Below, piece after piece: positions 20,479 to 33,350 of a DNA stretch of 33,350 nucleotides. The notes below the pieces were generated by a model, which was given only the letters and a program-made list of their open reading frames with translations, made no database searches and was not told the origin of the DNA. The DNA lies in IMG/VR virus record IMGVR_UViG_3300037189_023468, positions 1-33,350 of that record; one strand, 5' to 3'. How positions within the stretch are numbered: the stretch's first letter is position 1; each line of letters begins with the position of its first letter. The DNA comes from a virus. The position numbers were made by a program, and so were the translations under genes.

Positions 20479-20488
20479 TTATGTTCCA

Positions 20489-21605: not shown

Positions 21606-21608
21606 TAC

Positions 21609-21670
21609 TCCAAGTAGCTCCGGCTACTTGGAATCGAACATTTGACTTGCGCTAGGTTGTGCCTTACAAT
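21609..21670 (+). promoter_or_regulatory. Promoter cassette for genes 21710-22646
   Basis: Perfect hairpin TCCAAGTAGC-TCCG-GCTACTTGGA (21609-21632), then ATCGAAC, TTGACT (21642-21647), 17 bases and TACAAT (21665-21670). The leader hairpin is ACGGCA-GT-TGCCGT, followed by AAGGAGG. Confidence 0.88.
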
Positions 21671-21709
21671 CCTAGTACGGCAGTTGCCGTGAGGACAAAG
21701 GAGGACGAA

Positions 21710-22015: not shown

Positions 22016-22179
22016 GTAAGTGGATTGTCGTATTACAGAACACAGGCTATCGGGAGTTTGAGGTAGAAGCCGATAGCAAAGAGGAGGCAGAGAAGAAGGC
22101 GTGGGCTGCTTCCGAGGAACCCGCTCCGTGGGATACGACCCCAGAAACAATCGTATGGAGTACGGAGGAGTTGGTATGA
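22012..22179 (+). CDS. Hypothetical small protein (55 aa)
   Basis: MSKWIVVLQNTGYREFEVEA is followed by SKEEAEKKAWAASEEP, a strand-strand-helix layout, and WDTTPETIVWSTEELV. It overlaps both neighbours by four bases (ATGA at each end), so it is clearly part of the cassette despite its size. It resembles the small 'EVEADSKEEAEKKA' phage proteins; function unknown. Confidence 0.75.
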   Translation: MSKWIVVLQNTGYREFEVEADSKEEAEKKAWAASEEPAPWDTTPETIVWSTEELV

Positions 22180-22646: not shown

Positions 22647-22665
22647 GCGCATTTATTAGTTCGCC

Positions 22666-22730
22666 TCCAATGAGCTCCGGCTCATTGGACTAGAACCCGC
22701 TTGACGGATTGCCAAGCGTGGTCTTACAAT
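22666..22730 (+). promoter_or_regulatory. Promoter cassette for genes 22774-23795
   Basis: Perfect hairpin TCCAATGAGC-TCCG-GCTCATTGGA (22666-22689), then CTAGAACC, TTGACG (22701-22706), 18 bases and TACAAT (22725-22730). Leader hairpin TCGGG-GCTT-CCCGA. Confidence 0.88.
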
Positions 22731-22773
22731 AAGCAGGTCGGGGCTTCCCGATAAGAGGACATAAGGAGGCTGT

Positions 22774-23322
22774 ATGCCACTAAGTTGGTTCGTGGGAAAC
22801 ATCAAGGACGCGGATGATGTCTGTTGGCTCACCGCAACAAAGAGCAGCGTGATGGATGGACGCGTGCGCGGCGAGGAGTACCTCAGCCCAATCACGAACT
22901 CCTTCATCTGGGCAACGATGACGATTGGACTAAACGAAATCACCGAAGCCAATGTGGATGAGTGGGAGCAGCGACTCGCGCTCGCATACGAAATCGGTTG
23001 GCTCTCAAAGATGACCGTATGGAACGGCAACGAGCCAGATGGCGATAAGAACGCAGATTGCTTTGAGGCTCGCCCCCTGACGCGTGCCGACATCGTTCGG
23101 CACATCGGACTCTCAACAAACGCCTCTTACGAGTCGCCGACGGCTTGGCGCAAGCGCGTTGTTGAGCGTATGACTGAGGAAGGTTTGCGCGAGGCAAAGC
23201 ACGCTGAGAAGCGCAACGCCGAACTTGACGCAATCTGGATGAAGGAAGGCAACGAGTTGCGAGATGAGATTCGCAGCGGCAAGACAACCAAAGAAGAAGC
23301 AGCAAAGGTGGTGGTAGCGTGA
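22774..23322 (+). CDS. Hypothetical protein (182 aa)
   Basis: The N-terminal half (MPLSWFVGNIKDADDVCWLT, then EEYLSPITNSFIWATMTIGL) looks globular; the C-terminal half is strongly helical and charged (RVVERMTEEGLREAKHAEKR). No family recognised. The stop overlaps the GTG of the RadC-like gene (GTGA), so the two are coupled. Confidence 0.72.
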   Translation: MPLSWFVGNIKDADDVCWLTATKSSVMDGRVRGEEYLSPITNSFIWATMTIGLNEITEANVDEWEQRLALAYEIGWLSKMTVWNGNEPDGDKNADCFEARPLTRADIVRHIGLSTNASYESPTAWRKRVVERMTEEGLREAKHAEKRNAELDAIWMKEGNELRDEIRSGKTTKEEAAKVVVA

Positions 23323-23795
23323 AGAACTGGAAAGCATACGAACTAGTCGTCAAGCGAAAGAAGGTTGCTGATCAGTCCGATGAGAGGGTTGAGCAGCCAG
23401 CCGTGGCAGCGAAGATGTTCAGAGATTTCGCAAAGGACTCCAATCAGGAGTCGCTGTTTGTGATGGTGCTTGGGGGAAGAAATAACCTCATTGGGATTGA
23501 GCAGGTCTATGTCGGTACGGCGACAGGCACAAGCGTTCGGGTCAATGAGGTGTTCCGCTCTTGTATCCTGACTGGCGGTCAGGGCATCGTGGTTGTTCAC
23601 AATCACCCAAGCGGCGATCACGCCCCATCTGACGAGGATAAGAAACTGACTGAGGACTTGATTCGCGGAGCGCGACTCTTGGACATTGAGTTCTTGGATC
23701 ATCTTGTTATTTCATCGGAGGGATACACCAGTATCCGCTCTAATGTTCCAAACATCTGGGCGATTGACTTGGAGCAAAGCGAAGTTATCGTGTAG
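23319..23795 (+). CDS. RadC-like JAMM-domain protein (158 aa)
   Basis: VVVHNHPSGDHAPSDEDKKL holds the RadC/JAB (DUF2466) signature H94-N-H96-P-S-G-D100, and LDIEFLDHLVISSEGYTSIR is the conserved end. The N-terminal helix-hairpin-helix of full RadC is missing, as in many phage and plasmid copies. JAMM metalloproteins can act as isopeptidases; the role of RadC-like proteins in phages is unknown. It starts with GTG 23319 coupled to the preceding gene. Confidence 0.9.
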   Translation: MKNWKAYELVVKRKKVADQSDERVEQPAVAAKMFRDFAKDSNQESLFVMVLGGRNNLIGIEQVYVGTATGTSVRVNEVFRSCILTGGQGIVVVHNHPSGDHAPSDEDKKLTEDLIRGARLLDIEFLDHLVISSEGYTSIRSNVPNIWAIDLEQSEVIV

Positions 23796-23817
23796 TCATT
23801 GGGTTATCTAAACAACT

Positions 23818-23840
23818 AACCGCCTTCGGGCGGTTTTTTG
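23818..23840 (+). terminator. Intrinsic terminator
   Basis: AACCGCC-TTCG-GGCGGTT is followed by TTTTGTTG. It ends the RadC-like transcript. Confidence 0.92.
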
Positions 23841-23846
23841 TTGTAC

Positions 23847-23909
23847 CCAAGATAGCTCCGGCTATCTTGGCTAGAACCTATTGACGGGCGGCGAGCAGTA
23901 CCTTACAAT
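23847..23909 (+). promoter_or_regulatory. Promoter cassette for genes 23949-24607
   Basis: Perfect hairpin CCAAGATAGC-TCCG-GCTATCTTGG (23847-23870), then CTAGAACC, TTGACG (23881-23886), 17 bases and TACAAT (23904-23909). Leader hairpin ACCC/GGGT around TGATTG. Confidence 0.88.
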
Positions 23910-23948
23910 GACCTTACCCTGATTGGGGTGTGGAATAAGGAGGACGAA

Positions 23949-24398
23949 ATGGGCTACGACATTTACTCATTGCGAGAGAATCGTGAACTGGCGGCGGCGC
24001 ACGCGAAGAAGCACCGCTCAATGTGGATTGAGGCAGACGGCTCTTACGCGGAGAAAGCACCCAGCGCGGTCTATTTCCGACTGAACATTTGGGGTATGGG
24101 CTACCTGCGCGCTTTCCACGAGGAGATTGGATTCCCAGAGGTCAATGAGAATCTGTACGATAACAGCGGGAACATCATCAAGGACTATGAGTGCGAAGAA
24201 CTACACAATGCCATCTCCGAGTTGAGTGAAGAAAAAATCAAGGAGATTATTACTGGTATTCTTCTTGCCAGCCCTTACACGGACGATAAGACGAAGGCTG
24301 ACCCAGATGAGGAGGCTACGGCTTGGGTTGCGATTGTTGAGGAGTGGCGAGAGTTTCTAGGTCTTTGCCGAACCCTGAAAGGGTGCGAAGTCCTATGA
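23949..24398 (+). CDS. Hypothetical protein (149 aa)
   Basis: Opens MGYDIYSLRENRELAAAHAK and continues AVYFRLNIWGMGYLRAFHEE, then a helical region EELHNAISELSEEKIKEIIT and VAIVEEWREFLGLCRTLKGC. The 'MGYD...YFR.N.WGM..L' layout is shared by other phage and bacterial hypotheticals, but no function is known. ATG 23949 follows AAGGAGGACGAA. Coupled to the next gene. Confidence 0.72.
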   Translation: MGYDIYSLRENRELAAAHAKKHRSMWIEADGSYAEKAPSAVYFRLNIWGMGYLRAFHEEIGFPEVNENLYDNSGNIIKDYECEELHNAISELSEEKIKEIITGILLASPYTDDKTKADPDEEATAWVAIVEEWREFLGLCRTLKGCEVL

Positions 24399-24607
24399 GC
24401 GAATACTTTGAGATTCCGATTGGAGATTCGCAGTTAGTCCGCAAGTGCGACTGCCCAGACAATCTGCGCGAGGCGCATTGGCTCTGGTCTGATTGCGAGA
24501 AGGAAGGGCACGATGAAGGCTGCTTCGTCGTGTGGTGTCGTCATTGCGACCTCTATTCAAGTGATTGCGAAGAAGATTGGAAGTTAGTGCCAGACGACTG
24601 GAAGTAA
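24395..24607 (+). CDS. Cysteine-rich small protein (70 aa)
   Basis: KCDCPDNLREAHWLWSDCEK, then CFVVWCRHCDLYSSDCEEDW: seven cysteines with a CRHC pair, likely a zinc-binding module. ATG 24395 overlaps the previous stop. Function unknown. Confidence 0.7.
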   Translation: MSEYFEIPIGDSQLVRKCDCPDNLREAHWLWSDCEKEGHDEGCFVVWCRHCDLYSSDCEEDWKLVPDDWK

Positions 24608-24623
24608 GTCGTTATGGTTCAGC

Positions 24624-24688
24624 CCCAAGTGGCCGCGGCCACTTGGGCTAGAACCCACTTGACGGCTGGGCAGAGATGACTCTATAAT
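24624..24688 (+). promoter_or_regulatory. Promoter cassette for gene 24730 and the downstream RNA
   Basis: Perfect hairpin with CCCAAGTGGC and GCCACTTGGG around CGCG (24624-24647), then CTAGAACC, TTGACG (24659-24664), 18 bases and TATAAT (24683-24688). The leader hairpin is CCCC-ACTT-GGGG. Confidence 0.88.
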
Positions 24689-24729
24689 GGGCTTGCCCCA
24701 CTTGGGGTGCTGTGAACAAGGAGGACGAA

Positions 24730-25014
24730 ATGGCAAAGAGCATCAAGCGCGCAGAGGCAGCAGAGATGATTCGCCAGAGCAATGGCGCAATCTTCGGCGT
24801 GGACTTCATCAAGCGAACCACAGGAGAACTTCGCAAGATGACGGCGCGTATCGGCGTGAAGAAGCACCTCAAAGGCGGCGTTGCTGCCTATGACGCGGCG
24901 GCGAAAGACCTTATCTTCGTCTACGACATTACCGCCGAGGGCTATCGCTCCATCGCCCTTGACGCAATCACCGCGCTTCGCATCGGCGGCGAGCAGTACG
25001 AGGTGAAGGCGTAA
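24730..25014 (+). CDS. Hypothetical basic protein (94 aa)
   Basis: MAKSIKRAEAAEMIRQSNGA is helical; IFGVDFIKRTTGELRKMTAR and GVAAYDAAAKDLIFVYD follow in a beta-barrel-like pattern often found in small phage proteins of this opening ('G.IF.V.F.KR.dG..R.M..R.GV'). No function is known. It is followed immediately by a long gene-free structured stretch that may be its 3' UTR or a separate RNA. Confidence 0.75.
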   Translation: MAKSIKRAEAAEMIRQSNGAIFGVDFIKRTTGELRKMTARIGVKKHLKGGVAAYDAAAKDLIFVYDITAEGYRSIALDAITALRIGGEQYEVKA

Positions 25015-25230
25015 ATAAATCCGCGCCGTGTAGAGGACGGCTAGTTGGCAGATTGACGAACTGCCCGCGACGATAAGGTCTGGCTCTTGGGCTCCTAACC
25101 AGAGAGGGTAGAGTCAGCAGCAACTAGGCGAGAGCCGAAGGTTGCCTCCGCAAGGGGATAAGCGTCATAGCGGCGATACGCGGGGAGTCGTGCCAGATGT
25201 GGTGTCTGGCACGGCTCCCCTTTATTGTTT
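25015..25230 (+). ncRNA. Candidate structured RNA ending in a strong terminator
   Basis: About 210 bases have no plausible gene. A 7-bp long-range stem, CTAGTTG (25041-25047) with CAACTAG (25121-25127), encloses a branched region. Local stems include GCCGT/ACGGC (25025-25041), GGCAG/CTGCC (25047-25065) and TCTGG/CCAGA (25079-25103). The 3' end is a 15-bp terminator (25182-25220): GGGGAG and CGTGCCAGA pair with their partners, followed by TTTATTGTTT. No separate promoter is seen, so it is probably made by processing of the upstream transcript. I do not recognise the family. Confidence 0.6.
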
Positions 25231-25233
25231 CCG

Positions 25234-25293
25234 CTCAAACAGCCGCGGCTGTTTGAGTTAGAACTTGACGGCTGGTCAATCATCATTTAGACT
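25234..25293 (+). promoter_or_regulatory. Promoter cassette for genes 25335-25887
   Basis: Perfect hairpin CTCAAACAGC / GCTGTTTGAG around CGCG (25234-25257), then TTAGAAC, TTGACG (25265-25270), 17 bases and TAGACT (25288-25293). Leader hairpin CGCC/GGCG around AACTTG. Confidence 0.85.
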
Positions 25294-25334
25294 TGCTCCA
25301 CGCCAACTTGGGCGAGGCTACGAAGGAGGACACG

Positions 25335-25544
25335 ATGGCAAAGAAGCACAGCGCGGACTTTACGCTCACGGACGGCGGCTCGGTCTGCCTACTCACGCCA
25401 ACGACACGCGAGGCACGCGGCTGGCTTGACGAGAACATCGGCGAGGACGCGATGTATCTCGGTCGCGGTCTTGCGATTGAGCGTCAGTATGTTCAGCAGA
25501 TTCTAGATGGGATTCAGGCTGACGGATTTGAGGTGGCAGTCTAA
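25335..25544 (+). CDS. Conserved hypothetical protein (69 aa)
   Basis: The pattern DFTLTDGGSVCLLTPTTREA, then RGWLDENIGEDAMYLGRGLA and IERQYVQQILDGIQADGFEV is a known small conserved family in phages and bacteria ('GGSV.LL.P.T..A..WL.E.......G..L.VE.RYV..I..G...DG'). No function is known. ATG 25335 follows AAGGAGG. Its stop overlaps the next ATG (TAATG). Confidence 0.78.
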   Translation: MAKKHSADFTLTDGGSVCLLTPTTREARGWLDENIGEDAMYLGRGLAIERQYVQQILDGIQADGFEVAV

Positions 25545-25753
25545 TGGACGAGAATAAGGTTTACCTCTGCCAAGTCTGCGAGAACGGAGAGGGCGTTTGG
25601 TGGGCGGACAATAACGCCGACAAGTTTGCGCGGTGGTACTGCGAGAACTGCGAGGAGATTCGCTCCGAGAGGTGGGGCTGCGCGATGCTTATTGCCGAAG
25701 GCGCGACCTGCGAAGACGGCATCTGCGGCTGCGGCGGAACGGGGGTCTACTAA
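25544..25753 (+). CDS. Cysteine-rich small protein (69 aa)
   Basis: YLCQVCENGEGVWWADNNAD, then YCENCEEIRSERWGCAML and CEDGICGCGGTGVY: paired CxxC motifs fit a zinc ribbon, and the final CGCGGTG looks like a fragment of a DnaJ-type cysteine motif. Coupled to both neighbours (TAATG). Function unknown. Confidence 0.72.
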   Translation: MDENKVYLCQVCENGEGVWWADNNADKFARWYCENCEEIRSERWGCAMLIAEGATCEDGICGCGGTGVY

Positions 25754-25887
25754 TGAGTACGATGGTTTGGTGCGACGACTGCGAGCGCAATGAGGTTGTC
25801 TGCGAGTGTGTTGTGAACGACGACAGGGAGAACGGCTGCTACGAGTTTGAGCAGTTTCAGAACTGCGAGCACCCGCAAGAGAGTTAG
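25753..25887 (+). CDS. Cysteine-rich microprotein (44 aa)
   Basis: MVWCDDCERNEVVCECVVND is followed by ENGCYEFEQFQNCEHP, six cysteines in 44 residues. ATG 25753 overlaps the previous stop (TAATGA). Third gene of the cassette. Probably zinc-binding; no family recognised. Confidence 0.68.
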   Translation: MSTMVWCDDCERNEVVCECVVNDDRENGCYEFEQFQNCEHPQES

Positions 25888-25927
25888 TTATTTGGCTCCT
25901 TGTTCTTTGAGTTTATTATTGTGGCAG

Positions 25928-26045
25928 CCCGAAGTGCAGCTGCACTTCGGGATAGAACTGTCAAGGGGGCGGCTGGTGGATAAAAAAGATTCATAAAGAA
26001 TCTTTGGGAAAGTGCTTGACAAGACCCCAGACGAGGTGAGATACT
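25928..26045 (+). promoter_or_regulatory. Atypical promoter cassette for the structured RNA at 26052
   Basis: Perfect 24-bp palindrome CCCGAAGTGC-AGCT-GCACTTCGGG (25928-25951), then GATAGAAC. In place of TTGAC comes TGTCAAG, the reverse complement, and an extra hairpin AAAGATTC-ATAAA-GAATCTTT follows. The real -35 TTGACA is at 26016-26021, with an 18-base spacer to GATACT (26040-26045). Confidence 0.7.
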
Positions 26046-26051
26046 CCCTAT

Positions 26052-26279
26052 GTCGGAAGCGATCCTAGGATAAGCAACCGACTGGGTGAGACTCTGGACG
26101 AGCGAGCAGATGCCGCAGCCAAGAAATGCGGGGATAGAGACGCAAAGGACGATGACCGCTAGGAGCCAATGTATCGGCGGAGCGGAAGGAAAAGGAGTCT
26201 GGGGAAGTGATTAGCCCCAGACAACGAATCCGAGGAAAGACCTCTCAGGGCGACGGCTCTGGGGGGTCTTTCTATTTGT
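26052..26279 (+). ncRNA. Candidate structured non-coding RNA (about 230 nt)
   Basis: No open frame of quality spans this stretch, yet it has its own promoter and ends in a strong terminator, AAAGACCTCTCAG (26236-26248) with CTGGGGGGTCTTT (26259-26271), followed by CTATTTGTT. Inside are GTCGG/CCGAC (26052-26082) with an inner ATCC/GGAT, CCGCA/TGCGG (26113-26131), a long-range AGACTC (26089-26094) with GAGTCT (26195-26200), and GTCTGGGG/CCCCAGAC (26197-26222). The last two are mutually exclusive, so a switch is possible. It does not look like tmRNA, RNase P or 6S RNA, as far as can be judged. Confidence 0.68.
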
Positions 26280-26283
26280 TCGG

Positions 26284-26349
26284 CTCATCTTTGCTCCGGC
26301 AAAGATGAGTAGAACCCGCTTGACGGCTGATGATGTTTGTGCGTACAAT
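26284..26349 (+). promoter_or_regulatory. Promoter cassette for genes 26391-26722
   Basis: Perfect hairpin CTCATCTTTGC / GCAAAGATGAG around TCCG (26284-26309; arms of 11), then TAGAACC, TTGACG (26320-26325), 18 bases and TACAAT (26344-26349). Leader hairpin ACCCC-GATT-GGGGT. Confidence 0.88.
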
Positions 26350-26390
26350 GGTGCTACCCCGATTGGGGTGGCTAGTGAAGGAGGCAAACG

Positions 26391-26648
26391 ATGGGATACC
26401 TACAAGGGTCAATGACGATGTGCGGCAACGGCGACTGCTACTACGACCAATGCGAGTGCGAGATTCACGACCACGAAATGGTTCAGGAGTGCGAGGGCGA
26501 GGAGGCTCTCGGTCTGGACAAGCGTTGTCCGTTTGAGGGCAAGACGCGCTCGTTCGCTTACGGCTGGAACGGCTACGAGAACGCCTACGAGCATAAGCAA
26601 TCGCTATGCGATGATTGCTACGACGCGCTCCAAAGCGTGGTCGTATGA
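26391..26648 (+). CDS. Cysteine-rich protein (85 aa)
   Basis: MTMCGNGDCYYDQCECEIHD and ALGLDKRCPFEGKTRSFAYG, then SLCDDCYDALQSVVV: seven cysteines and two histidines with CxC and CxxC pairs. Probably a zinc protein. AAGGAGG lies before ATG 26391; the stop overlaps the next ATG. Confidence 0.7.
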   Translation: MGYLQGSMTMCGNGDCYYDQCECEIHDHEMVQECEGEEALGLDKRCPFEGKTRSFAYGWNGYENAYEHKQSLCDDCYDALQSVVV

Positions 26649-26722
26649 TTGTTGAGTACGCCATATTCTACGGGCTGCTCCTGCTGCTAACGCTGTACGG
26701 ACTCGCGCTCGTAAGCAAGTAG
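26645..26722 (+). CDS. Single-span membrane microprotein (25 aa)
   Basis: MIVEYAIFYGLLLLLTLYGL, then ALVSK: a single hydrophobic helix with a basic end. ATG 26645 overlaps the previous stop (ATGA), which supports translation by coupling. It has the same size and plan as the microprotein at 17163-17240, though its sequence differs. Confidence 0.62.
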   Translation: MIVEYAIFYGLLLLLTLYGLALVSK

Positions 26723-26737
26723 TCGTTATTGTGGCGG

Positions 26738-26798
26738 CGCAAGGAGCCGAGGCTCCTTGCGGTGGAACTTGACAGGCGCAGAACTTATCGCGTATAAT
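26738..26798 (+). promoter_or_regulatory. Promoter cassette for gene 26841
   Basis: Perfect hairpin CGCAAGGAGC / GCTCCTTGCG around CGAG (26738-26761), then GTGGAAC, TTGACA (26769-26774), 18 bases and TATAAT (26793-26798). It is a near-consensus promoter. Leader hairpin TCGGG-AACT-CCCGA. Confidence 0.9.
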
Positions 26799-26840
26799 CG
26801 TGTAGTCGGGAACTCCCGATAGTTGCGAGTAGGAGGACTT

Positions 26841-27104
26841 ATGGACAGCAAGATTCGGGCGTGGACTTACGAGGGGTCGTTCCATTGCGTAGCGTGCGCC
26901 ACGGCGCGATTCGGCGACGCACTTGACGATGGGCAGACAACTGACCGCGAGGGCAACACCCTCGGTCCTGTCTTTGAGTGGGACGAGGTGAATCTCTGCG
27001 GCGACACTTGCGGCACCTGCCTCAACTGGGCAGTAGAGCCAGAGGCGCACGAGCCAGCCAGTTGTTTATTCGGCGCAGATTGTCGCCAGTTTGAGTTCGC
27101 ATAG
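26841..27104 (+). CDS. Cysteine-rich protein (87 aa)
   Basis: FHCVACATARFGDALDDGQT, then LCGDTCGTCLNWAVEPEAHE and CLFGADCRQFEFA. The FHC..C opening is typical of a small family in which 'Y.Cpdha..' precedes acidic residues, but the family cannot be named with confidence. Probably zinc-binding. AGGAGG precedes ATG 26841. Confidence 0.7.
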   Translation: MDSKIRAWTYEGSFHCVACATARFGDALDDGQTTDREGNTLGPVFEWDEVNLCGDTCGTCLNWAVEPEAHEPASCLFGADCRQFEFA

Positions 27105-27151
27105 CGGACTAATGTCTACGAGGTGGCGGCAGCCTCCACCACCTCTTCCCC

Positions 27152-27190
27152 AAGCGGGCTAGTTGATCGCAGCCAACTAGCCCGCTTTTT
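27152..27190 (+). terminator. Intrinsic terminator
   Basis: AAGCGGGCTAGTTG (27152-27165) pairs with CAACTAGCCCGCTT (27174-27187), followed by TTTGTTA. A hairpin GAGGTGG/CCACCTC precedes it (27120-27146). Confidence 0.9.
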
Positions 27191-27197
27191 GTTATGC

Positions 27198-27262
27198 CCC
27201 AAGTAGCAGCGGCTACTTGGGCTAGAACCCGCTTGACAGGCTGGGAAAGTTCACATTACAAT
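27198..27262 (+). promoter_or_regulatory. Promoter cassette for gene 27302
   Basis: Perfect hairpin CCCAAGTAGC / GCTACTTGGG around AGCG (27198-27221), then CTAGAACC, TTGACA (27233-27238), 18 bases and TACAAT (27257-27262). Leader hairpin AGCCC/GGGTT around AGTT. Confidence 0.88.
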
Positions 27263-27301
27263 GGGCGTAGCCCAGTTGGGTTGAGAAGACAGGAGGCTAG
27301 A

Positions 27302-27643
27302 ATGTTCAGAGCATTTGCAATCTCACTCACGAACAGCGACTTCTACCAGTTCTACTGCTCGCAGGGCGAAGTGTGCAGCAAGTGCCCAGTCTGGTATCTC
27401 CGACCAGAAGTTCGGAGCCGCGTTGAGCCGCACGCCATCAAGATTGAACTCATCTATGGAGATACGATGGACGGCGTTGCGATCCCAGACGAGTCGCACG
27501 AAACCGAACTTGATGGAACTTACGACAGGTTCCAGTACGCGATCGTTCACTGGCGCAATGATGGATTCATTGACTTCGTTGTCTTTGATTCAACTGAAGC
27601 CGCGCAGCGCGAGATGCAAGACATTGTGAGCGTCTTCGCCTAA
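27302..27643 (+). CDS. Hypothetical protein (113 aa)
   Basis: Opens MFRAFAISLTNSDFYQFYCS and contains CSKCPVWYLRPEVRSR and a beta-rich part (IKIELIYGDTMDGVAIPD, then FQYAIVHWRNDGFIDFVVFD). Only one CxxC is seen. ATG 27302 follows AGGAGGCTAGA. No family recognised. Confidence 0.7.
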   Translation: MFRAFAISLTNSDFYQFYCSQGEVCSKCPVWYLRPEVRSRVEPHAIKIELIYGDTMDGVAIPDESHETELDGTYDRFQYAIVHWRNDGFIDFVVFDSTEAAQREMQDIVSVFA

Positions 27644-27665
27644 ACCCGCGATAAATTAGTTCAGC

Positions 27666-27730
27666 CCCTAATGGCTCCGGCCATTAGGGATAGAACGCGC
27701 TTGACAGGCTGGCAGTTTATCCCTTAGTAT
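27666..27730 (+). promoter_or_regulatory. Promoter cassette for gene 27774
   Basis: Perfect hairpin CCCTAATGGC-TCCG-GCCATTAGGG (27666-27689), then ATAGAAC, TTGACA (27701-27706), 18 bases and TAGTAT (27725-27730). Leader hairpin TCGGG-GCTT-CCCGA. Confidence 0.88.
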
Positions 27731-27773
27731 TCAGAGGTCGGGGCTTCCCGATGAAGAAAGAGGAGGCTAGAAA

Positions 27774-28181
27774 ATGGGTAAGGCAATCAAATTCGGAGTC
27801 GGCAAGTTTGAGGACGCAACGCCAAACGGCGCACTCTTCAACTGGGTTGAGGTGGTGGACTTCAACGATGACGGCAGCACGCTCAAAGAGATTTACCGCG
27901 TGGGCGAGTTTGACATCACCGAGGTCGCGGTTTCTGGCAAGTACGGCGCGACGAGTGTGGTGCTCTGGTGCGATGAGGAGGGGCTTTTCAATGAGCCAGT
28001 CGTTCGCAATCAGGCGGCAACATCGCTGCGAAATGAGATTCTCGGCGGGAACTTTGACGGCATCTATGGCAACTGCGTATTGACCGCAGAGGACAAGGAC
28101 GGGCAGACGCTCGCCCTCAATGATGAGCAGGTGGAAGAAATCCGCACGCTGCTAGAACTGGGCGGCTACCCTATCGCGTAA
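27774..28181 (+). CDS. DUF3846-like protein (135 aa)
   Basis: The middle of the protein, VVLWCDEEGLFNEPVVRNQA, then ATSLRNEILGGNFDGIYGNC, follows the DUF3846 plan (DEEG...P.RN..AT.L......D.I.G..v), a small family frequent in phages and mobile elements of unknown function. The ATG at 27774 follows AGGAGGCTAGAAA. Expressed alone; followed by a terminator. Confidence 0.68.
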   Translation: MGKAIKFGVGKFEDATPNGALFNWVEVVDFNDDGSTLKEIYRVGEFDITEVAVSGKYGATSVVLWCDEEGLFNEPVVRNQAATSLRNEILGGNFDGIYGNCVLTAEDKDGQTLALNDEQVEEIRTLLELGGYPIA

Positions 28182-28204
28182 AGTTTCGCAGCTGCGAGAA
28201 CATC

Positions 28205-28229
28205 AACGAGGGGTGCGCCCCTCGTTTTT
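28205..28229 (+). terminator. Intrinsic terminator
   Basis: AACGAGGGG (28205-28213) pairs with CCCCTCGTT (28218-28226) around TGCG and is followed by TTTGTTTG. Confidence 0.92.
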
Positions 28230-28236
28230 GTTTGCC

Positions 28237-28300
28237 TCCAATCTGCCTCGGCAGATTGGACTAGAACCACTTGACGGCAGGCAGAAGATGACTCTATAAT
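28237..28300 (+). promoter_or_regulatory. Promoter cassette for genes 28343-28773
   Basis: Perfect hairpin TCCAATCTGC / GCAGATTGGA around CTCG (28237-28260), then CTAGAACC, TTGACG (28271-28276), 18 bases and TATAAT (28295-28300). Leader hairpin AGCCC-ACTT-GGGCT. Confidence 0.88.
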
Positions 28301-28342
28301 GGCAGCAGCCCACTTGGGCTGGCTAGGAATAGGAGGCTACAA

Positions 28343-28552
28343 ATGGCAACGATGGAAGACTTGGACTACGCCCCCTGCGAGCAGTGCGGCGATGGTATGA
28401 GCGAAACACTCGTCCAGAACGGCAAGCCACTTTGCGAGAGGTGCCACAACAAAATCAACTGCGGGTGCGAAACCTGCACTTGTGAGGAGTGCGGCGAGGT
28501 TCACGAGGCTGACCTAGCAAACGAGAGCGACTATCGGGAGGTAGGGAAATAA
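28343..28552 (+). CDS. Zinc-finger small protein (69 aa)
   Basis: APCEQCGDGMSETLVQNGKP, then LCERCHNKINCGCETCTCEE and CGEVHE: four CxxC-type pairs in 69 residues. The first half has a LIM- or zinc-ribbon-like C-x2-C...C-x2-C spacing. AGGAGG precedes ATG 28343. Coupled to the next gene (TAATG). Confidence 0.74.
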   Translation: MATMEDLDYAPCEQCGDGMSETLVQNGKPLCERCHNKINCGCETCTCEECGEVHEADLANESDYREVGK

Positions 28553-28773
28553 TGAACGAGAACACTTGGATTCAGATTCACACAAATGGCGCAAGCACGA
28601 CCTTTGCCCGTTGGTATGAAGGGCAAGACGCGGAAGGAGATACGGTCTTTGTCTTTGAGAAGATGGCGACCGACTTTGTGAATAGCATCGTTGAGGTGTT
28701 CGGCGTTGAGGAGTTCGGCAGCGCGGAAGGCGCAACTAATCGCCTACAAGAAGCCGTCGCGCTTGCGCGATAA
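28552..28773 (+). CDS. Hypothetical protein (73 aa)
   Basis: Beta-rich start (NTWIQIHTNGASTTFARWYE, then GDTVFVFEKMATDFVNS) and an acidic helical end. No family recognised. Its ATG overlaps the preceding stop; a terminator follows. Confidence 0.7.
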   Translation: MNENTWIQIHTNGASTTFARWYEGQDAEGDTVFVFEKMATDFVNSIVEVFGVEEFGSAEGATNRLQEAVALAR

Positions 28774-28811
28774 CTAGATGCTCACAACGGGGAACTAGCC
28801 CCTCGGAGTGA

Positions 28812-28845
28812 AACAATAAGCCCCGCTTCGGCGGGGTTTATTGTT
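28812..28845. terminator. Bidirectional terminator with UUCG loop
   Basis: AACAATAA-G-CCCCGC pairs with GCGGGG-T-TTATTGTT around TTCG. The A/T base supplies U-runs in either direction. Confidence 0.9.
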
Positions 28846-28849
28846 ATGG

Positions 28850-28912
28850 CTCAAGGAGCCGAGGCTCCTTGAGATAGAACGCTTGACAAGCAGCCAGAAG
28901 TTGGCGTACTAT
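28850..28912 (+). promoter_or_regulatory. Promoter cassette for gene 28953
   Basis: Perfect hairpin CTCAAGGAGC / GCTCCTTGAG around CGAG (28850-28873), then ATAGAAC, TTGACA (28883-28888), 18 bases and TACTAT (28907-28912). Leader hairpin CGGCA/TGCCG. Confidence 0.88.
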
Positions 28913-28952
28913 TGTCTTGCGGCACTTGCCGTGGCGAACGAAGGAGGCAACA

Positions 28953-29225
28953 ATGTTCGGTATCGCAGCGACCTATGTCACGAAGTTCATCAGCACCCCA
29001 GGTCACGGCTACCTCGTGTCTACGAAGGCAATGCTCCGCGAACTCGGCATCGCGGATAAGATTAGCAACTGCTCGTATGAGCGCAACGGCAGCGTCTACC
29101 TTGAGGAAGATGTTGATGCGCCGCTATTCCTCGCCGCAATGGAGAAGGCGGGCTTCACGGTTTCGTACAACTCGGTGAGCGTGAACGACGACTACACCGC
29201 AAAGATGGAGTATTACTCGGCGTAA
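28953..29225 (+). CDS. Hypothetical protein (90 aa)
   Basis: MFGIAATYVTKFISTPGHGY, then LVSTKAMLRELGIADKISNC and FLAAMEKAGFTVSYNSVSVN suggest a small alpha/beta fold. No family recognised. ATG 28953 follows AAGGAGGCAACA. Confidence 0.7.
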   Translation: MFGIAATYVTKFISTPGHGYLVSTKAMLRELGIADKISNCSYERNGSVYLEEDVDAPLFLAAMEKAGFTVSYNSVSVNDDYTAKMEYYSA

Positions 29226-29253
29226 ACTCCTCGCCGCTCAGTATTAGTTCGGC

Positions 29254-29316
29254 TCTAGGTAGCCGCGGCTACCTAGACTAGAACGCTTGACAGCGCGCAG
29301 AATCTCACTCTATAAT
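29254..29316 (+). promoter_or_regulatory. Promoter cassette for gene 29359
   Basis: Perfect hairpin TCTAGGTAGC / GCTACCTAGA around CGCG (29254-29277), then CTAGAAC, TTGACA (29287-29292), 18 bases and TATAAT (29311-29316): full consensus boxes. Leader hairpin GCCC-ACTT-GGGC. Confidence 0.9.
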
Positions 29317-29358: not shown

Positions 29359-29676
29359 ATGAGCGGACAATACAACGGCTGGAGCAACTACGAAACTTGG
29401 TTGGCGGCGTTGTGGATTGGCGAGGGCTACGCGGGGGGCAGTGATTACGTTTCGGAGATTGCCGCCGAGATTCTTACGGACAACGAGGGCGACAGCGACG
29501 AAGCCGCCGACACTCTCGCGGACACCTTGCGCAACGACATTGACGAAACTTGGACAACGAGGGCGGCAGGTCTTGAGGCAGACCTATTGCGTGCCGCGGT
29601 TGAGGCAATCAACTGGCACGAAATCGCACGCACCTATGTAGATGACGCGAAAGCCGAGGCAAAGGCAGAAGCATAA
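29359..29676 (+). CDS. DUF7249-like hypothetical protein (105 aa)
   Basis: The opening NGWSNYETWLAALWIGEG is typical of a widespread small phage family (NGW.NYETWNVALWI), for which no function is known. The rest is acidic and helical (EIAAEILTDNEGDSDEAADT, then AVEAINWHEIARTYVDDAKA). AAGGAGG precedes ATG 29359. The final rightward cassette. Confidence 0.78.
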   Translation: MSGQYNGWSNYETWLAALWIGEGYAGGSDYVSEIAAEILTDNEGDSDEAADTLADTLRNDIDETWTTRAAGLEADLLRAAVEAINWHEIARTYVDDAKAEAKAEA

Positions 29677-29694: not shown

Positions 29695-29820
29695 AAGCCC
29701 CCCCAAGAACCGCCGAGGCTCTTGGGGGGCTTATTATTTGGGCAAGCCCTCCTCGCCGGGCGAGGAGGGATCAAACAGAAAGCCCCCCGCTGCCGCGTGG
29801 CAACGAGGGGCTTCTGGTTT
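29695..29820. terminator. Convergent terminator region
   Basis: AAGCCCCCC...GGGGGGCTT (29695-29732) is followed by ATTATTTG and ends the rightward array. A 10-bp hairpin CCCTCCTCGC/GCGAGGAGGG (29747-29769) with GATCAAACAG resembles the cassette hairpin. AAGCCCC/GGGGCTT (29780-29813 region) ends the leftward gene. Confidence 0.8.
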
Positions 29821-30049
29821 AGTCGCCTCCTGGAAGCGGGTCGGTATCCGTTCCGATAAACCCACGCTCGGGGCTAATCCTGCGCTTGGTGCGCTCCCAA
29901 GCGTCATCTTCTTCCGCAATAGAATCGGCGTATTCCACCGCCCATTTCTCGTAATAGGAATCGCGTCCTTCTACGCACGCAGCGCAGATAGTTGATAGTG
30001 GCTCAAACTCGTTGAAGAAATCAACGCCACAATCTTGGCACGCTACCAT
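29819..30049 (-). CDS. Zinc-ribbon protein (76 aa)
   Basis: MVACQDCGVDFFNEFEPLST, then ICAACVEGRDSYYEKWAVEY: two CxxC pairs form a zinc ribbon at the N-terminus, followed by an acidic helical tail. AAGGAGG precedes the ATG. The last leftward gene before the convergent terminator. Function unknown. Confidence 0.72.
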   Translation of the reverse strand: MVACQDCGVDFFNEFEPLSTICAACVEGRDSYYEKWAVEYADSIAEEDDAWERTKRRISPERGFIGTDTDPLPGGD

Positions 30050-30091
30050 TTTATTGCCTCCTTATCGCAACACGGGAAGCCCCGCACCGAC

Positions 30092-30155
30092 ATAGTGCCT
30101 GAATCGCTGGGTTCATTATAGTTCGTCTGATGCGAGCGGAGCGAGCGGCAGAACC
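30092..30155 (-). promoter_or_regulatory. Class II promoter for gene 30049
   Basis: On the minus strand -35 TATAAT (30115-30120), 17 bases and -10 CACTAT (30092-30097). Upstream GTTC...GAAC arms (30121-30155) are kept, but the inner inverted repeat is replaced by a GCGAGCGGAGCGAGC direct repeat. Leader hairpin CGGGG-CTT-CCCG. Confidence 0.7.
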
Positions 30156-30162
30156 CTAGGCC

Positions 30163-30197
30163 AGTTATCTTAGTTAGTTATGCAGTTAGTTATTAGT
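30163..30197. repeat. GTTA tandem repeat, copy 1
   Basis: A stretch of TTAGTTAGTTA-like tetranucleotide repeats. Copies follow each leftward cassette. Together with the adjacent CGAACGAAGTGAGAGA element (30212-30227) it forms the 3' part of the intergenic module. Confidence 0.7.
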
Positions 30198-30241
30198 CGG
30201 GTTGGCGAGCTCGAACGAAGTGAGAGAGTCGGGATAGACCA

Positions 30242-30271
30242 CCCCACCCACCGCCGAAGCGGTGAGTGGGG
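30242..30271 (-). terminator. Stable UUCG hairpin after gene 30279
   Basis: CCCCAC/GTGGGG and CACCGC/GCGGTG stack around a loop that reads UUCG in the minus-strand RNA. No U-run follows, so it may serve for 3' end stability. Confidence 0.65.
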
Positions 30272-30278
30272 TGATGCG

Positions 30279-30623
30279 CTACGCCTGACCGTAGCAGGTC
30301 TTCTCCATGTCTAGTGTGTGCGTGAGCCTCTTGGACTCTTCGCCGCACTCCTCGCACTCCCAATAGCCGAATAGCGAGAGGTCGTCATCACTCGCGTCAG
30401 CATAAACGCTGGCGAACTCTGCAATCTCCTCGGCGTAGTGGTGTGGCTTCTCCATCACATCAACCGCATGGTCGGCGGTATCAGCGCGGCGAGCGTATGA
30501 TGACGCCCACAACTCTAGCGCGTGCTCATCAGCACCACCAGACGCCTCTACGAATCGCCATGTGTGATAGTCCACGACGCTATCGTTGCGCTCCTCTATT
30601 GCTTGATTCTTCATGACTCCCAT
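30279..30623 (-). CDS. Hypothetical acidic protein with C-terminal CxxC (114 aa)
   Basis: Helical and acidic in the body (AEEIAEFASVYADASDDDLS), with LFGYWECEECGEESKRLTHT near the end, resembling the FG.Y.CE.C module of the genes at 30862 and 32427. ATG 30623 is seven bases from AAGGAG. Function unknown. Confidence 0.7.
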   Translation of the reverse strand: MGVMKNQAIEERNDSVVDYHTWRFVEASGGADEHALELWASSYARRADTADHAVDVMEKPHHYAEEIAEFASVYADASDDDLSLFGYWECEECGEESKRLTHTLDMEKTCYGQA

Positions 30624-30664
30624 TACTAGCCTCCTTATTACTACACGGCATTTGCCGCACCTGA

Positions 30665-30727
30665 ATAATGCCACCGTCGCGTGATTCGTTTAGGTTCCTC
30701 TGATAGGCGCGGAGCGCCGAGTCGAAC
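30665..30727 (-). promoter_or_regulatory. Class II promoter for gene 30623
   Basis: Minus strand: hairpin GGCGC/GCGCC (30706-30718), -35 CTAAAC (30688-30693), 17 bases, -10 CATTAT (30665-30670). Leader hairpin CGGCA-AA-TGCCG. Confidence 0.82.
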
Positions 30728-30779
30728 CAGTTATTAGTCAGTTAGTTATTAGGTTAGTTAGGTCACAGACTGGCGGTCT

Positions 30780-30845
30780 CGAACGAAGTGAGAGACTCGG
30801 GATTGAACCACCACCGCCCAGACCCGATGGTCTGGACGATGGTGG
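30780..30845 (-). repeat. CGAACGAAGTGAGAGA element and 3' hairpin, copy 2
   Basis: The repeat core (30780-30795) precedes a two-part hairpin (30808-30845: CCACCA/TGGTGG and CCAGACC/GGTCTGG). A GTTA-repeat stretch lies at 30729-30761. Together they form the 3' end of the cassette of gene 30862. Confidence 0.7.
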
Positions 30846-30861
30846 AGTGAAGCGGTTGCGA

Positions 30862-31167
30862 CTACTCTTCGTCGCAATCGTCGTCGTATGAACCTAGTTC
30901 AATGTCATCGGCGCCGCAATCCTCGCAATCGTACATGCCGAATTTGCCGATGTCATACAGGAAACTATCATTGCCAAGAGCGATTGCGTAATCCGCAAGA
31001 CGCTCAAGGTGCTCCTCTGGTCGCAGCGTCATGCTCACCACGTCCATGACGTCCAACTTGGCGAACCCTGAACGATTGCGATAGGTGACGAACGACTCAA
31101 CGATGTCTACGAGCGAGCGGGGATCGCCACCGCTGCCCACTGGAGTGAACCGTAAACTATGACCCAT
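30862..31167 (-). CDS. Hypothetical protein with YDIGKFG zinc module (101 aa), paralogue of 32427
   Basis: The C-terminus SFLYDIGKFGMYDCEDCGAD, then DIELGSYDDDCDEE is nearly identical in pattern to the end of the gene at 32427 (YDIGKFGSYHCEKC...DDIEYGSYHDEC). Both have CxxC...C, so a small metal site is likely. The N-terminal halves differ more. GGAGG lies before the ATG. No family recognised. Confidence 0.75.
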   Translation of the reverse strand: MGHSLRFTPVGSGGDPRSLVDIVESFVTYRNRSGFAKLDVMDVVSMTLRPEEHLERLADYAIALGNDSFLYDIGKFGMYDCEDCGADDIELGSYDDDCDEE

Positions 31168-31210
31168 TGCTTTACCCTCCTATTCATAACACGGGAAGCC
31201 CCGCACCTGA

Positions 31211-31274
31211 ATAATGCCACGAGGGGGTGATTCATTTAGGTGGTCTCGTTAGGCGCGGAGCGCCGAGTAGAACG
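31211..31274 (-). promoter_or_regulatory. Class II promoter for gene 31167
   Basis: Minus strand: hairpin GGCGC/GCGCC (31252-31264), -35 CTAAAT (31234-31239), 17 bases, -10 CATTAT (31211-31216). Leader hairpin CGGGG-CTT-CCCG. Confidence 0.82.
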
Positions 31275-31309
31275 GTTAGTTAGTTAGTTATCTTATGGGT
31301 TGTCGGTCT

Positions 31310-31374
31310 CGAACGAAGTGAGAGAGCCGAGATTGAACCACCACCGCCAACCGCCGAAGCGGTTGACGATGGTG
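31310..31374 (-). repeat. CGAACGAAGTGAGAGA element and 3' hairpin, copy 3
   Basis: Repeat core at 31310-31325; hairpin with CACCA/TGGTG and AACCGC/GCGGTT (31339-31374). GTTA repeats at 31274-31290. End of the cassette of gene 31390. Confidence 0.7.
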
Positions 31375-31389
31375 ATTTGCTGTGGCGGT

Positions 31390-31674
31390 CTACTTGAAGG
31401 TCGCGAGTTCAGTATTGTACTGCTCCTCGGTGATGACCTTGGTGCCGCACCCTGGGCACTCTGGGACGTCAGCGTAAACTTCTCTTACGTCCATTTCCTG
31501 AACGACGTTCCACGCCTTCATCGCGCGAACGAAATCAGTGTTGACGACGATTCCCAAATACTTCGGAAGCCCCGCTTCTGCGCAATACTCGCAAACGATT
31601 TCGTCGCCCAAGAAGAACGCAACAACGTCCGCTGCGCCCTCGCCCTTTGCTACAATCTTGATGTACTCCAACAT
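31390..31674 (-). CDS. Hypothetical protein with split CxxC pairs (94 aa)
   Basis: MLEYIKIVAKGEGAADVVAF, then EIVCEYCAEAGLPKYLG and PECPGCGTKVITEEQYN. The CEYC and CPGC pairs probably form one zinc site across the protein. AAGGAGG lies before the ATG. No family recognised. Confidence 0.72.
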   Translation of the reverse strand: MLEYIKIVAKGEGAADVVAFFLGDEIVCEYCAEAGLPKYLGIVVNTDFVRAMKAWNVVQEMDVREVYADVPECPGCGTKVITEEQYNTELATFK

Positions 31675-31716
31675 TGTTTACCTCCTTATGAAACGCACGG
31701 CAACTGCCGCACCAAG

Positions 31717-31780
31717 AGAATGCCACGGACGAGGTTGTTGTTTAGGTTGCCTCGTTAGCCGCGGAGCGGCGAGTCGAACC
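31717..31780 (-). promoter_or_regulatory. Class II promoter for gene 31674
   Basis: Minus strand: hairpin GCCGC/GCGGC (31758-31770), -35 CTAAAC (31740-31745), 17 bases, -10 CATTCT (31717-31722). Leader hairpin CGGCA-GT-TGCCG. Confidence 0.82.
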
Positions 31781-31815
31781 AGTTATTAGTTAGTTATATT
31801 ACGGGGGTTCGGTAT

Positions 31816-31877
31816 CGAACGAAGTGAGAGAGCCTCGGTAGACCACCCCGCCCACCGCCGAAGCGGTGAACGGGGTG
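31816..31877 (-). repeat. CGAACGAAGTGAGAGA element and 3' hairpin, copy 4
   Basis: Repeat core at 31816-31831; hairpin CACCCCG/CGGGGTG with inner CACCGC/GCGGTG (31844-31877). GTTA repeats at 31781-31798. End of the cassette of gene 31884. Confidence 0.7.
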
Positions 31878-31883
31878 ATGCGA

Positions 31884-32207
31884 CTACTCTTGATCCGTCC
31901 AGAAGGCAGCGTCGTCATTGCCCTCCTCGTTCATTCGCGAGTAGAATGCGCTGCGCTCCTCCTCGATTGCGCGCTCCTCTACGCGAAGAAGAGCCGATCC
32001 GTCAAGGCACGCTGCCTCGCACGCTGCGTAGAACTCGTTGCTGATCAATGCCTGACGCTCGCAGCCGTTGCAATAGCCGTACCACTCTTCGCCGCACTGC
32101 TCGTGGTGCATACAATCGTATGGTTCACAGCAGCGCGCACGCTCAATGCGGATCACCGTCAACTCGCGTGCCATCTCCTGAACGCTCATTGTTTCCGTGT
32201 CTGACAT
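31884..32207 (-). CDS. Cysteine-containing acidic protein (107 aa)
   Basis: MSDTETMSVQEMARELTVIR, then RCCEPYDCMHHEQCGEEWYG and YCNGCERQALISNE give a cluster of seven cysteines and two histidines in 32 residues, likely one or two zinc sites. The rest is helical and acidic. ATG 32207 follows AGGAGG. Function unknown. Confidence 0.72.
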   Translation of the reverse strand: MSDTETMSVQEMARELTVIRIERARCCEPYDCMHHEQCGEEWYGYCNGCERQALISNEFYAACEAACLDGSALLRVEERAIEEERSAFYSRMNEEGNDDAAFWTDQE

Positions 32208-32248
32208 CTTGTGCCTCCTATAAACTATACGGCAGGTGCCGCAGAGAG

Positions 32249-32312
32249 ACAATGACATAGACGCCATTATTGTTTAGGTTCTCCTGATAGACGCGGAGCG
32301 TCGGCTCGAACG
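32249..32312 (-). promoter_or_regulatory. Class II promoter for gene 32207
   Basis: Minus strand: hairpin GACGC/GCGTC (32290-32302), -35 CTAAAC (32272-32277), 17 bases, -10 CATTGT (32249-32254). Leader hairpin CGGCA-CC-TGCCG. Confidence 0.82.
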
Positions 32313-32347
32313 GTTAGTTAGTTAGTTATCTTATGGAGTTTCGAGCT

Positions 32348-32413
32348 CGAACGAAGTGAGAGACTTGGGATGGAACCACCACCGCCCACCGCCGAAGCGG
32401 TGAGCGATGGTGG
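32348..32413 (-). repeat. CGAACGAAGTGAGAGA element and 3' hairpin, copy 5
   Basis: Repeat core at 32348-32363; hairpin CCACCA/TGGTGG with inner CACCGC/GCGGTG (32376-32413). GTTA repeats at 32312-32329. End of the cassette of gene 32427. Confidence 0.7.
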
Positions 32414-32426
32414 GGTGAAGCGAGTG

Positions 32427-32723
32427 CTACAACTCTTCTACGCACTCATCGTGGTATGAGCCGTACTCAATGTCATCGTCCTGACACTTCTCGCAATGGT
32501 AAGAGCCGAATTTGCCGATGTCATAAATCCAACTATCTACGCCAGAATCAATCGCGAACTCCGCGAGCGTTGCCAGACGATCCTCGCGGAACGGATCGAA
32601 TAGGAAATCCACCATATCGGAAACGTGAACTTTCCGACACTCAAAGTACGCTCTGATAACAGGACGGAGTACGCTGACGTCCTCCCAGACCCCCATACGC
32701 GTGAACGCTAACTTATGAGCCAT
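32427..32723 (-). CDS. Hypothetical protein with YDIGKFG zinc module (98 aa), paralogue of 30862
   Basis: The end SWIYDIGKFGSYHCEKCQDD, then DIEYGSYHDECVEEL matches that of 30862 almost residue by residue in its conserved positions; both also share the preceding ADYAI/AEFAI.SG.DS helix. The N-terminal halves are only loosely similar. Duplication within the array is the simplest reading. GGAGGGTAAAGCA precedes both starts. Confidence 0.75.
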   Translation of the reverse strand: MAHKLAFTRMGVWEDVSVLRPVIRAYFECRKVHVSDMVDFLFDPFREDRLATLAEFAIDSGVDSWIYDIGKFGSYHCEKCQDDDIEYGSYHDECVEEL

Positions 32724-32766
32724 TGCTTTACCCTCCTATAAACTACACGGCAACTGCCGCACCTGA

Positions 32767-32830
32767 ATAATGTCATGGACAAGTGATTCGTTTATGTGGG
32801 CTCGTTAGGCGCGGAGCGCCGAGTCGAACC
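32767..32830 (-). promoter_or_regulatory. Class II promoter for gene 32723
   Basis: Minus strand: hairpin GGCGC/GCGCC (32808-32820), -35 ATAAAC (32790-32795), 17 bases, -10 CATTAT (32767-32772). Leader hairpin CGGCA-GT-TGCCG. Confidence 0.82.
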
Positions 32831-32877
32831 AGTTATTGGTTAGTTACTTAGTTAGTTATCTTATGGGCTGTCGAGCT

Positions 32878-32943
32878 CGAACAACGTGAGAGAGAGTACC
32901 GACCGACCACCCCACCAACCGCGCGTCCGCGGTTGATGGGGTG
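32878..32943 (-). repeat. Diverged CGAAC...GTGAGAGA element and 3' hairpin, copy 6
   Basis: Core CGAACAACGTGAGAGA (32878-32893) differs in two bases from the others; hairpin CACCCCA/TGGGGTG with AACCGC/GCGGTT (32908-32943). GTTA repeats at 32830-32858. End of the cassette of gene 32964. Confidence 0.68.
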
Positions 32944-32963
32944 ATGTCTGGATTCGGCGATGA

Positions 32964-33221
32964 CTACTTGGCGCTCATCACCGTGAAGGTGCCTGCCGCC
33001 TTCTCCTTGCGGTACGCCTGCATAAGAGCCTTCTCGGACTCTCGGCGAGCCGTTTCCGCGTCGCTCCACACATTGACCAATGAGGCGTAAACCTTATCGG
33101 TCAGGTAGTCTGGCTCTGGCTGCCCGTTGAGTTGCGCGATGTTCTCCCACGATTGAACATTGCGATACGCTTCGCGCTCCGCGATGAATGATAGAGCGAA
33201 CAACTTATAGAGTGCGTCCAT
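32964..33221 (-). CDS. Hypothetical helical protein (85 aa)
   Basis: Helical and charged (MDALYKLFALSFIAEREAYR, then SLVNVWSDAETARRESEKAL); no cysteines, unlike most neighbours. ATG 33221 follows AGGAGG. No family recognised. Confidence 0.7.
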   Translation of the reverse strand: MDALYKLFALSFIAEREAYRNVQSWENIAQLNGQPEPDYLTDKVYASLVNVWSDAETARRESEKALMQAYRKEKAAGTFTVMSAK

Positions 33222-33286
33222 ACTGCCTCCTATTTGATTCTGTTTCGCGTTGCGATTCACAACGCGGCGAGCGTCCTCGCACCAGA

Positions 33287-33350
33287 AGAATGCCACGACC
33301 GAGTGATTCGTTTAGGTTCACCTGTTAGCCGCGGAGCGGCGATTCGAACC
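33287..33350 (-). promoter_or_regulatory. Class II promoter for gene 33221, at the window edge
   Basis: Minus strand: hairpin GCCGC/GCGGC (33328-33340), -35 CTAAAC (33310-33315), 17 bases, -10 CATTCT (33287-33292). The upstream GGTTCGA element runs to the window edge. The leader, about 60 bases, is longer than in its sisters and holds a different hairpin (GTTGTGAATCGCAAC). Confidence 0.8.

Follow-up and report, generated by a model that had tools for sequence, protein, structure and literature searches.

On a stretch of 33,350 bases from a tailed phage (positions 1 to 33,350 of the IMG/VR virus record IMGVR_UViG_3300037189_023468, referred to here in its full length as the window), two arrays of small genes face each other and meet near 29.7 kb; the rightward arm extends over ~19.0-29.7 kb, and the leftward arm runs from 33.3 down to 29.8 kb. 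The genes of the leftward arm are preceded by promoter-like sites of the type CTAAAY-N17-CAYTMT, most of them with TGn directly before the -10 hexamer, and these sites (class B) are confined to that arm. They are distinct from the TTGACR/TAYAAT promoters of the rightward arm (class A), and a second arm with non-canonical sites recurs, in three lineages and with different sequences, in five relatives of the phage, which supports the proposal of an initial annotation of the window that the two arms are regulated differently. We consider it somewhat better than even (a probability of about 0.55) that the leftward sites represent a second promoter class at which the host sigma-A reads an extended -10 element, while a -35 contact is either not needed or provided instead by a phage protein bound at the upstream box.

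The initial annotation had described (C/A)TAAA(C/T)-N17-CAYTNT in all seven leftward cassettes. The strict pattern MTAAAY-N17-CAYTNT has seven matches in the window, one of them an unrelated plus-strand site (2538) and the other six, on the minus strand, belonging to leftward cassettes 2 to 7; 0.15 matches are expected per shuffled window, and seven were reached in none of 100 shuffles. The six sites, each named by the upper coordinate in the pattern search, are CTAAAC-N17-CATTAT with TGG (30665-30693, promoter 2), CTAAAT-N17-CATTAT with TGG (31211-31239, promoter 3), CTAAAC-N17-CATTCT with TGG (31717-31745, promoter 4), CTAAAC-N17-CATTGT with TGT (32249-32277, promoter 5), ATAAAC-N17-CATTAT with TGA (32767-32795, promoter 6) and CTAAAC-N17-CATTCT with TGG (33287-33315, promoter 7). 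The description thus stands for six cassettes and fails for cassette 1, where a deviant minus-strand element (30092-30120) reads TATAAT-N17-CACTAT, its upstream hexamer agreeing with CTAAAC at 2 of 6 positions while the spacing of 17 and the CACTAT box are kept. TGn lies directly 5' of CAYTNT, at the position of an extended -10, in all six strict sites and is absent only from the deviant element at 30120; this feature had been missed in the initial annotation.

A search of IMG/VR with the class A and class B DNA patterns recovered a single relative, IMGVR_UViG_3300032245_001466 (G001; 82,937 bases), whose terminal direct repeat of 123 bases makes it probably a complete genome. Over most of the window's length the two sequences are colinear at ~80-90% identity, and the corresponding arm of G001 consists of 12 cassettes. 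The 29-mers of cassette 1 and promoter 5 have identical counterparts at G001 positions 35012 and 33369, promoter 6 differs from the site at 32819 in the spacer only, promoter 7 corresponds to CTAAAT-N17-CATTAT at 32299, and the orthologue of promoter 2 is ATAAAT-N17-TACTCT without TG. Among the 17 unique class B sites of the two genomes, the A, T and T at the second, fourth and sixth positions of the -10 (A2, T4 and T6) are present in 17/17, the T of TGn in 14 and its G in 16 (the element is lacking in cassette 1 and at G001 34439), and the TAAA of the upstream box in 15-16. The mean pairwise column difference over these sites is 0.06 for the key -10 columns, 0.15 for TAAA and 0.56 for the middle of the spacer. 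The conserved upstream box can be written ACCTAAAYRA and spans about -37 to -27; the match to TTGACA at the -35 position averages 1.9 of 6. A motif search over the rest of the genome, which the initial annotation had suggested, bears out the confinement of class B to the leftward arm, since all 19 class B sites (7 in the window and 12 in G001) score at least 14.9 with a weight matrix and so exceed every off-arm site in the 116 kb of the two genomes, the best of which scores 14.1. A sigma28/WhiG-type promoter, TAAA-N14-16-GCCGATAA, was considered and rejected; it has no match in the window, where the -10 region reads GGCATTMT.

The rightward arm holds 16 class A promoters on the plus strand (19047-29316) with the sequence TTGACR-N17/18-TAYAAT and variants of it, each with a hairpin and mostly TAGAAC upstream and with a 5' leader hairpin; the class A spacer in the window and G001 is mostly 18 and not 17. 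These promoters reveal a trade-off within the -10 region. Among 73 canonical class A promoters from six genomes (the window, G001 and the four further relatives introduced below), TGn is found in 13 of the 14 that lack the T at -12, T(-12), and in none of the 59 that have it (p=1.6e-13). With class A and class B pooled, the unique promoters of the window and G001 give corresponding counts of 16/18 and 0/25 (p=6e-10), and the only class B site with T(-12) in these two genomes, the TACTCT at G001 34439, has lost its TG. The polymerase that serves these phages evidently tolerates the loss of T(-12) only when TGn compensates for it, and compensation of this kind is what domains 2 and 3 of a sigma70-family factor would be expected to show. 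Class B obeys the rule of class A both in the window and in G001, and this is the main reason to think that a single sigma serves the two classes and that what sets them apart is located in the -35 region. The trade-off across the 73 promoters also amounts to an unusually clean natural record of a bacterial sigma balancing its contacts.

A search with one leftward protein found no related proteins. With the portal protein as the starting point, a wider clade of complete or long relatives was fetched: G003 (IMGVR_UViG_3300032270_001445), G004 (3300016263_001265), G009 (3300034071_003115) and G007 (3300012017_001157). All four have kept the class A arm, in which TTGACR/TAYAAT is constant, and all four have a convergent second arm. 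Across the six genomes, the medians of the best TTGACA/TATAAT score upstream of genes are 10.6-12.5 for the first arm and 3.3-5.6 for the second, with shuffled sequences at ~4 (103 vs 65 starts, p=6e-17); the scoring matrix carries textbook E. coli values, so that only the contrast between the arms is meaningful. The best canonical score of the second arm is at the shuffled level in 6/6 genomes, and the TTGAC -35 and TATAAT-like -10 that mark class A are missing there. The motifs that take their place are uniform within one genome and different between lineages, being CTRAAC, CTGACTAAAC and similar boxes with TATTCT, TACTCT or GATTAT in G003 and G004, and AAAARAAYC-N17-GATGATG in G009 and G007. 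The G003/G004 second-arm sites that have T(-12) lack TG in 17/17 cases; A2 and T6 of their -10 were required by the site search and are not independent evidence. The second arms of G009 and G007 lie at 43500-50750 and 43450-50200, respectively, and their innermost genes may be co-transcribed, because they are preceded by a leader-type hairpin only and not by an AAAARAAYC-N17-GATGATG site.

The -10 of class B looks like an ordinary sigma-A type because A2, T4 and T6 are invariant and accompanied by TGn. In the mechanism that we favor, the host housekeeping sigma, through sigma-A domains 2 and 3, would read TGn-CAYTMT as an extended -10 at the leftward sites, where the TTGAC contact of the rightward promoters would be missing and the (AC)CTAAAY(RA) box would occupy its place. 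Initiation would proceed without a -35 contact or with a phage-encoded protein at the CTAAAY box in its stead, and each leftward transcript would begin at its 5'-terminal hairpin and serve one small gene. The likely use of such an arrangement would be to set the strength or timing of the leftward arm apart from that of the strong rightward arm, for example by keeping class B active while -35 recognition is blocked. Extended -10 promoters are able to bypass the contact between sigma region 4 and the -35, and phage factors of the kind of gp39 and AsiA spare them (PMC7403470, PMC2988021); in Thermus phage P23-45, displacement of sigma region 4 by gp39 has less effect on the extended -10 middle/late promoters (PMC7403470). 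The likeness to P23-45 lies in the use of -10/-35 promoters and of extended -10 promoters without a -35 within one phage-host system, in which the host sigma-A reads both kinds, as would hold here for class B. No gp39-like factor was identified in the window phage, which differs from P23-45 also in having a conserved CTAAAY box and in using the class to mark one arm of single-gene cassettes.

Several observations weigh against an extended -10 read by sigma-A as the whole explanation. The CTAAA box is conserved, unlike a merely degenerate -35, and something may read it. To judge from the sites compared, the TGn solution is a trait of the window's lineage and not a clade rule for the second arm, because TGn occurs in only 4 of the 11 G003/G004 second-arm sites without T(-12) and the GATGAT of G009 and G007 is not preceded by TGn at all. 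Both CTAAAC and TGn are missing from cassette 1. The common ancestry of the cassettes, moreover, means that the counts of sites are not independent.

The first alternative, which we regard as possible but doubtful, would give the upstream box the leading part. A phage protein bound to CTAAAY near -32 would act with the host RNA polymerase at the -10 to activate the leftward arm by a kind of sigma appropriation, and the box would vary by lineage through co-evolution with its factor, the model being MotA and AsiA at the middle promoters of T4. At those promoters MotA together with AsiA replaces the -35 contact, TGn is present in about half of the sites and a very good -10 is needed (PMC2988021). 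Class B resembles them in keeping a sigma70-type -10 and in having another conserved box at about -30 in place of the -35, with a geometry close to that of the MotA box, which extends from -35 to -26 (PMC2988021); it differs in that the MotA box (a/t)(a/t)TGCTT(t/c)a centred at -30 is not found, the class B box being ACCTAAAYRA and its -10 CAYTMT. The conservation of the class B box well above that of the spacer and its absence outside the arm speak for a dedicated factor, as does the contrast between second-arm motifs that are lineage-specific but uniform per genome and a TTGACR/TAYAAT that stays fixed. The uniformity within a genome, however, could stem from cassette copying, as the genes of the arm turn over too; the boxes of G003 and G004 are loose, and no candidate factor has been pinned down. 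Bulk scans gave helix-turn-helix matches among the G001 proteins without an assigned bearer, and no protein under the name of AsiA or MotA appeared in the Pfam and PHROG scans, which covered part of the proteins. More tentative still is the extension to the clade, in which a rapidly evolving factor of the phage would cooperate with the host RNA polymerase and read the -35 box of the small-gene arm, as CTAAAY, as CTGAAC/CTGACTAAAC or as AAAARAAYC according to lineage, while the other arm would keep host consensus promoters.

It is improbable that the leftward sites resemble one another only because a shared intergenic cassette was recently copied, and that they are weak but otherwise ordinary sigma-A promoters, distinct from class A in nothing but their lower strength. 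The whole upstream regions are indeed homologous from cassette to cassette, and the gene content of the second arm is variable; a homologue in another lineage is found for 34/66 second-arm genes vs 87/97 first-arm genes, and by this measure the second-arm genes are the more variable. Yet the box and -10 columns are far more conserved than the adjoining columns of the same copied cassette, and neutral copying would not predict that canonical promoters should be missing from the second arm in three lineages with different sequences.

We see only a slight possibility that the phage encodes an alternative sigma factor or a polymerase of its own that transcribes the leftward arm, a reading for which the arm-specificity of the promoter class and the presence of a sigma-like mini-protein gene speak. 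It is plausible that the two arms are served in different ways, but the different forms of RNA polymerase that the initial annotation proposed for them are, where the -10 is concerned, made less likely by the T(-12)/TGn rule common to class A and class B. No match to sigma region 2 (PF04542) was obtained in the window or in the complete relative G001, with a positive control that responded, and no WhiB gene was found in either; a T7-type single-subunit polymerase had no match in the two genomes in a search whose own positive control was also silent. The sole sigma-like gene encodes a 71-amino-acid mini-protein corresponding to sigma-A region 4.2 with the helix SRERVRQIE (15645-15860, plus strand; also L005:3520-3735, minus strand), the last 49 residues of which are identical in G001, against a genome identity of 80-90%. 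The mini-protein has no region 2 and is missing from G003, G004, G007 and G009, which also have the second arm. Its recognition helix, RERVRQIE, is that of sigma-A, with the DNA-contacting residues taken as given in the sigma70 literature, and because of this match it should prefer TTGAC and not CTAAAC. We have rejected it as the cause of class B on the grounds of its sigma-A helix and its absence from relatives with the second class; speculatively, it could affect class A as a competitor for the TTGAC boxes.

We give almost no weight to the idea that the motif is an operator, a recombination site or an RNA element and not a promoter: intergenic repeats can serve as recombination substrates, and the cassettes differ between the window and G001, but the motif occurs once per gene, in constant register with the leader hairpin at the 5' end and the Shine-Dalgarno sequence, has an invariant -10 with no better promoter nearby and no copies away from gene starts, and an inverted repeat or hairpin around the CTAAAY box is unsupported (full stems in at best 4/17 sites vs a shuffled mean of 1.9).

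Two further systems invite comparison. The archaeal virus SIRV2 and its relatives (PMC11065993) resemble the window phage in that a single regulatory sequence, specific to the lineage, is common to many small and variable genes that are transcribed one by one, and the remaining genes use different promoters; the shared class there is built from archaeal TATA and B recognition elements and constitutes a strong early class before accessory and anti-defence genes, whereas class B is non-canonical. The start-associated sequences (SAS) and extended SAS (ESAS) of cluster K mycobacteriophages (PMC3203893) are likewise repeated intergenic elements that immediately precede a large number of small non-structural genes and share a single orientation, but the 13-bp GGGATAGGAGCCC overlaps the ribosome-binding site, whereas the class B element sits at -35/-10. 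Only four scattered near matches to GGGATAGGAGCCC were found, none of them in the leftward arm or its leaders. The two arms offer a naturally replicated comparison, since in several related genomes dozens of similar single-gene units have their hairpins and leaders in common but promoters of two classes. Whether phages assign small genes to expression programmes through -35 changes alone can be tested directly on this material. The variable second arm might also be a good place to seek host-takeover or counter-defence genes.

The layout common to both arms that the initial annotation had recognized (an upstream hairpin, a leader hairpin and a strong Shine-Dalgarno sequence) was borne out by alignment and by folding. 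The aligned leftward cassettes contain, in order, an upstream hairpin with a CTCCGC loop, AAC or CAC, CTAAAY, a variable spacer, TGn, CAYTNT, the 5' hairpin and AGGAGG. In cassette 2 the upstream hairpin (GGTTC..GGCGCTCCGCGCC..GAAC; 30694-30728, minus strand) abuts the -35 region, and there is a similar one at every leftward cassette; the folded leader hairpin of this cassette, GCGGCAAATGCCGT (30645-30658, minus strand), begins 6 nucleotides past the -10. Those of the other leftward cassettes are at 30072-30085, 31191-31204, 31697-31710, 32229-32242, 32747-32760 and 33267-33280, also on the minus strand. The leader hairpin starts ~6 nucleotides after the -10 in class B and ~5-8 nucleotides after it in class A, and identical leader hairpins (CGGGGCTTCCCG, CGGCAGTTGCCG) are found in both arms.

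The leftward genes, all on the minus strand, encode proteins of 76 (29819-30049), 114 (30279-30623), 101 (30862-31167), 94 (31390-31674), 107 (31884-32207), 98 (32427-32723) and 85 (32964-33221) amino acids, numbered 1 to 7 in that order; genes 1, 5, 6 and 7 have no family match, and genes 2, 3 and 4 have no convincing one. Each leftward gene is directly followed by a long GC-rich hairpin without a U-run, often with a TTCG loop, and then by CTCTCTCACTTCGTTCGAG; these hairpins (minus strand, about 30240-30275, 30810-30845, 31340-31375, 31840-31880, 32378-32415 and 32908-32945) are probably terminators of the U-poor type. Repeats of the TAACTAAC type, with stops in all frames, lie between the terminator-like and upstream hairpins of the leftward cassettes (minus strand, about 30150-30210, 30720-30765, 31275-31295, 31785-31805, 32315-32335 and 32835-32865), and TAA-rich tracts akin to them are present in the second arms of the relatives. 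The convergence of the two arms (29699-29814) is occupied by strong hairpins that are terminator-like when read on the minus strand.

Elsewhere, the window encodes a tail fibre (259-1902, minus strand) and a terminase (3116-4579, plus strand); terminase and portal show <30% identity to those of cultured phages among the matches listed, and a tRNA is similar to those of Streptomyces phages. On the plus strand, the rightward arm encodes DUF1281_C (Api92-like), DUF932, RadC, DUF3846 and DUF7249 proteins (19555-20403, 20520-21551, 23319-23795, 27774-28181 and 29359-29676), a set known from early-expressed regions of plasmids and phages. Two plus-strand stretches of this arm, 25015-25220 and 26016-26273, contain no convincing gene, and each closes in a strong terminator-like hairpin. 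Rfam gave only a sub-threshold match on them, to ctRNA_pGA1 at 25162-25230. The second stretch is preceded by TTGACA-N18-GATACT, identical in G001 (38664), and both are likely to be phage non-coding RNAs within the rightward arm.

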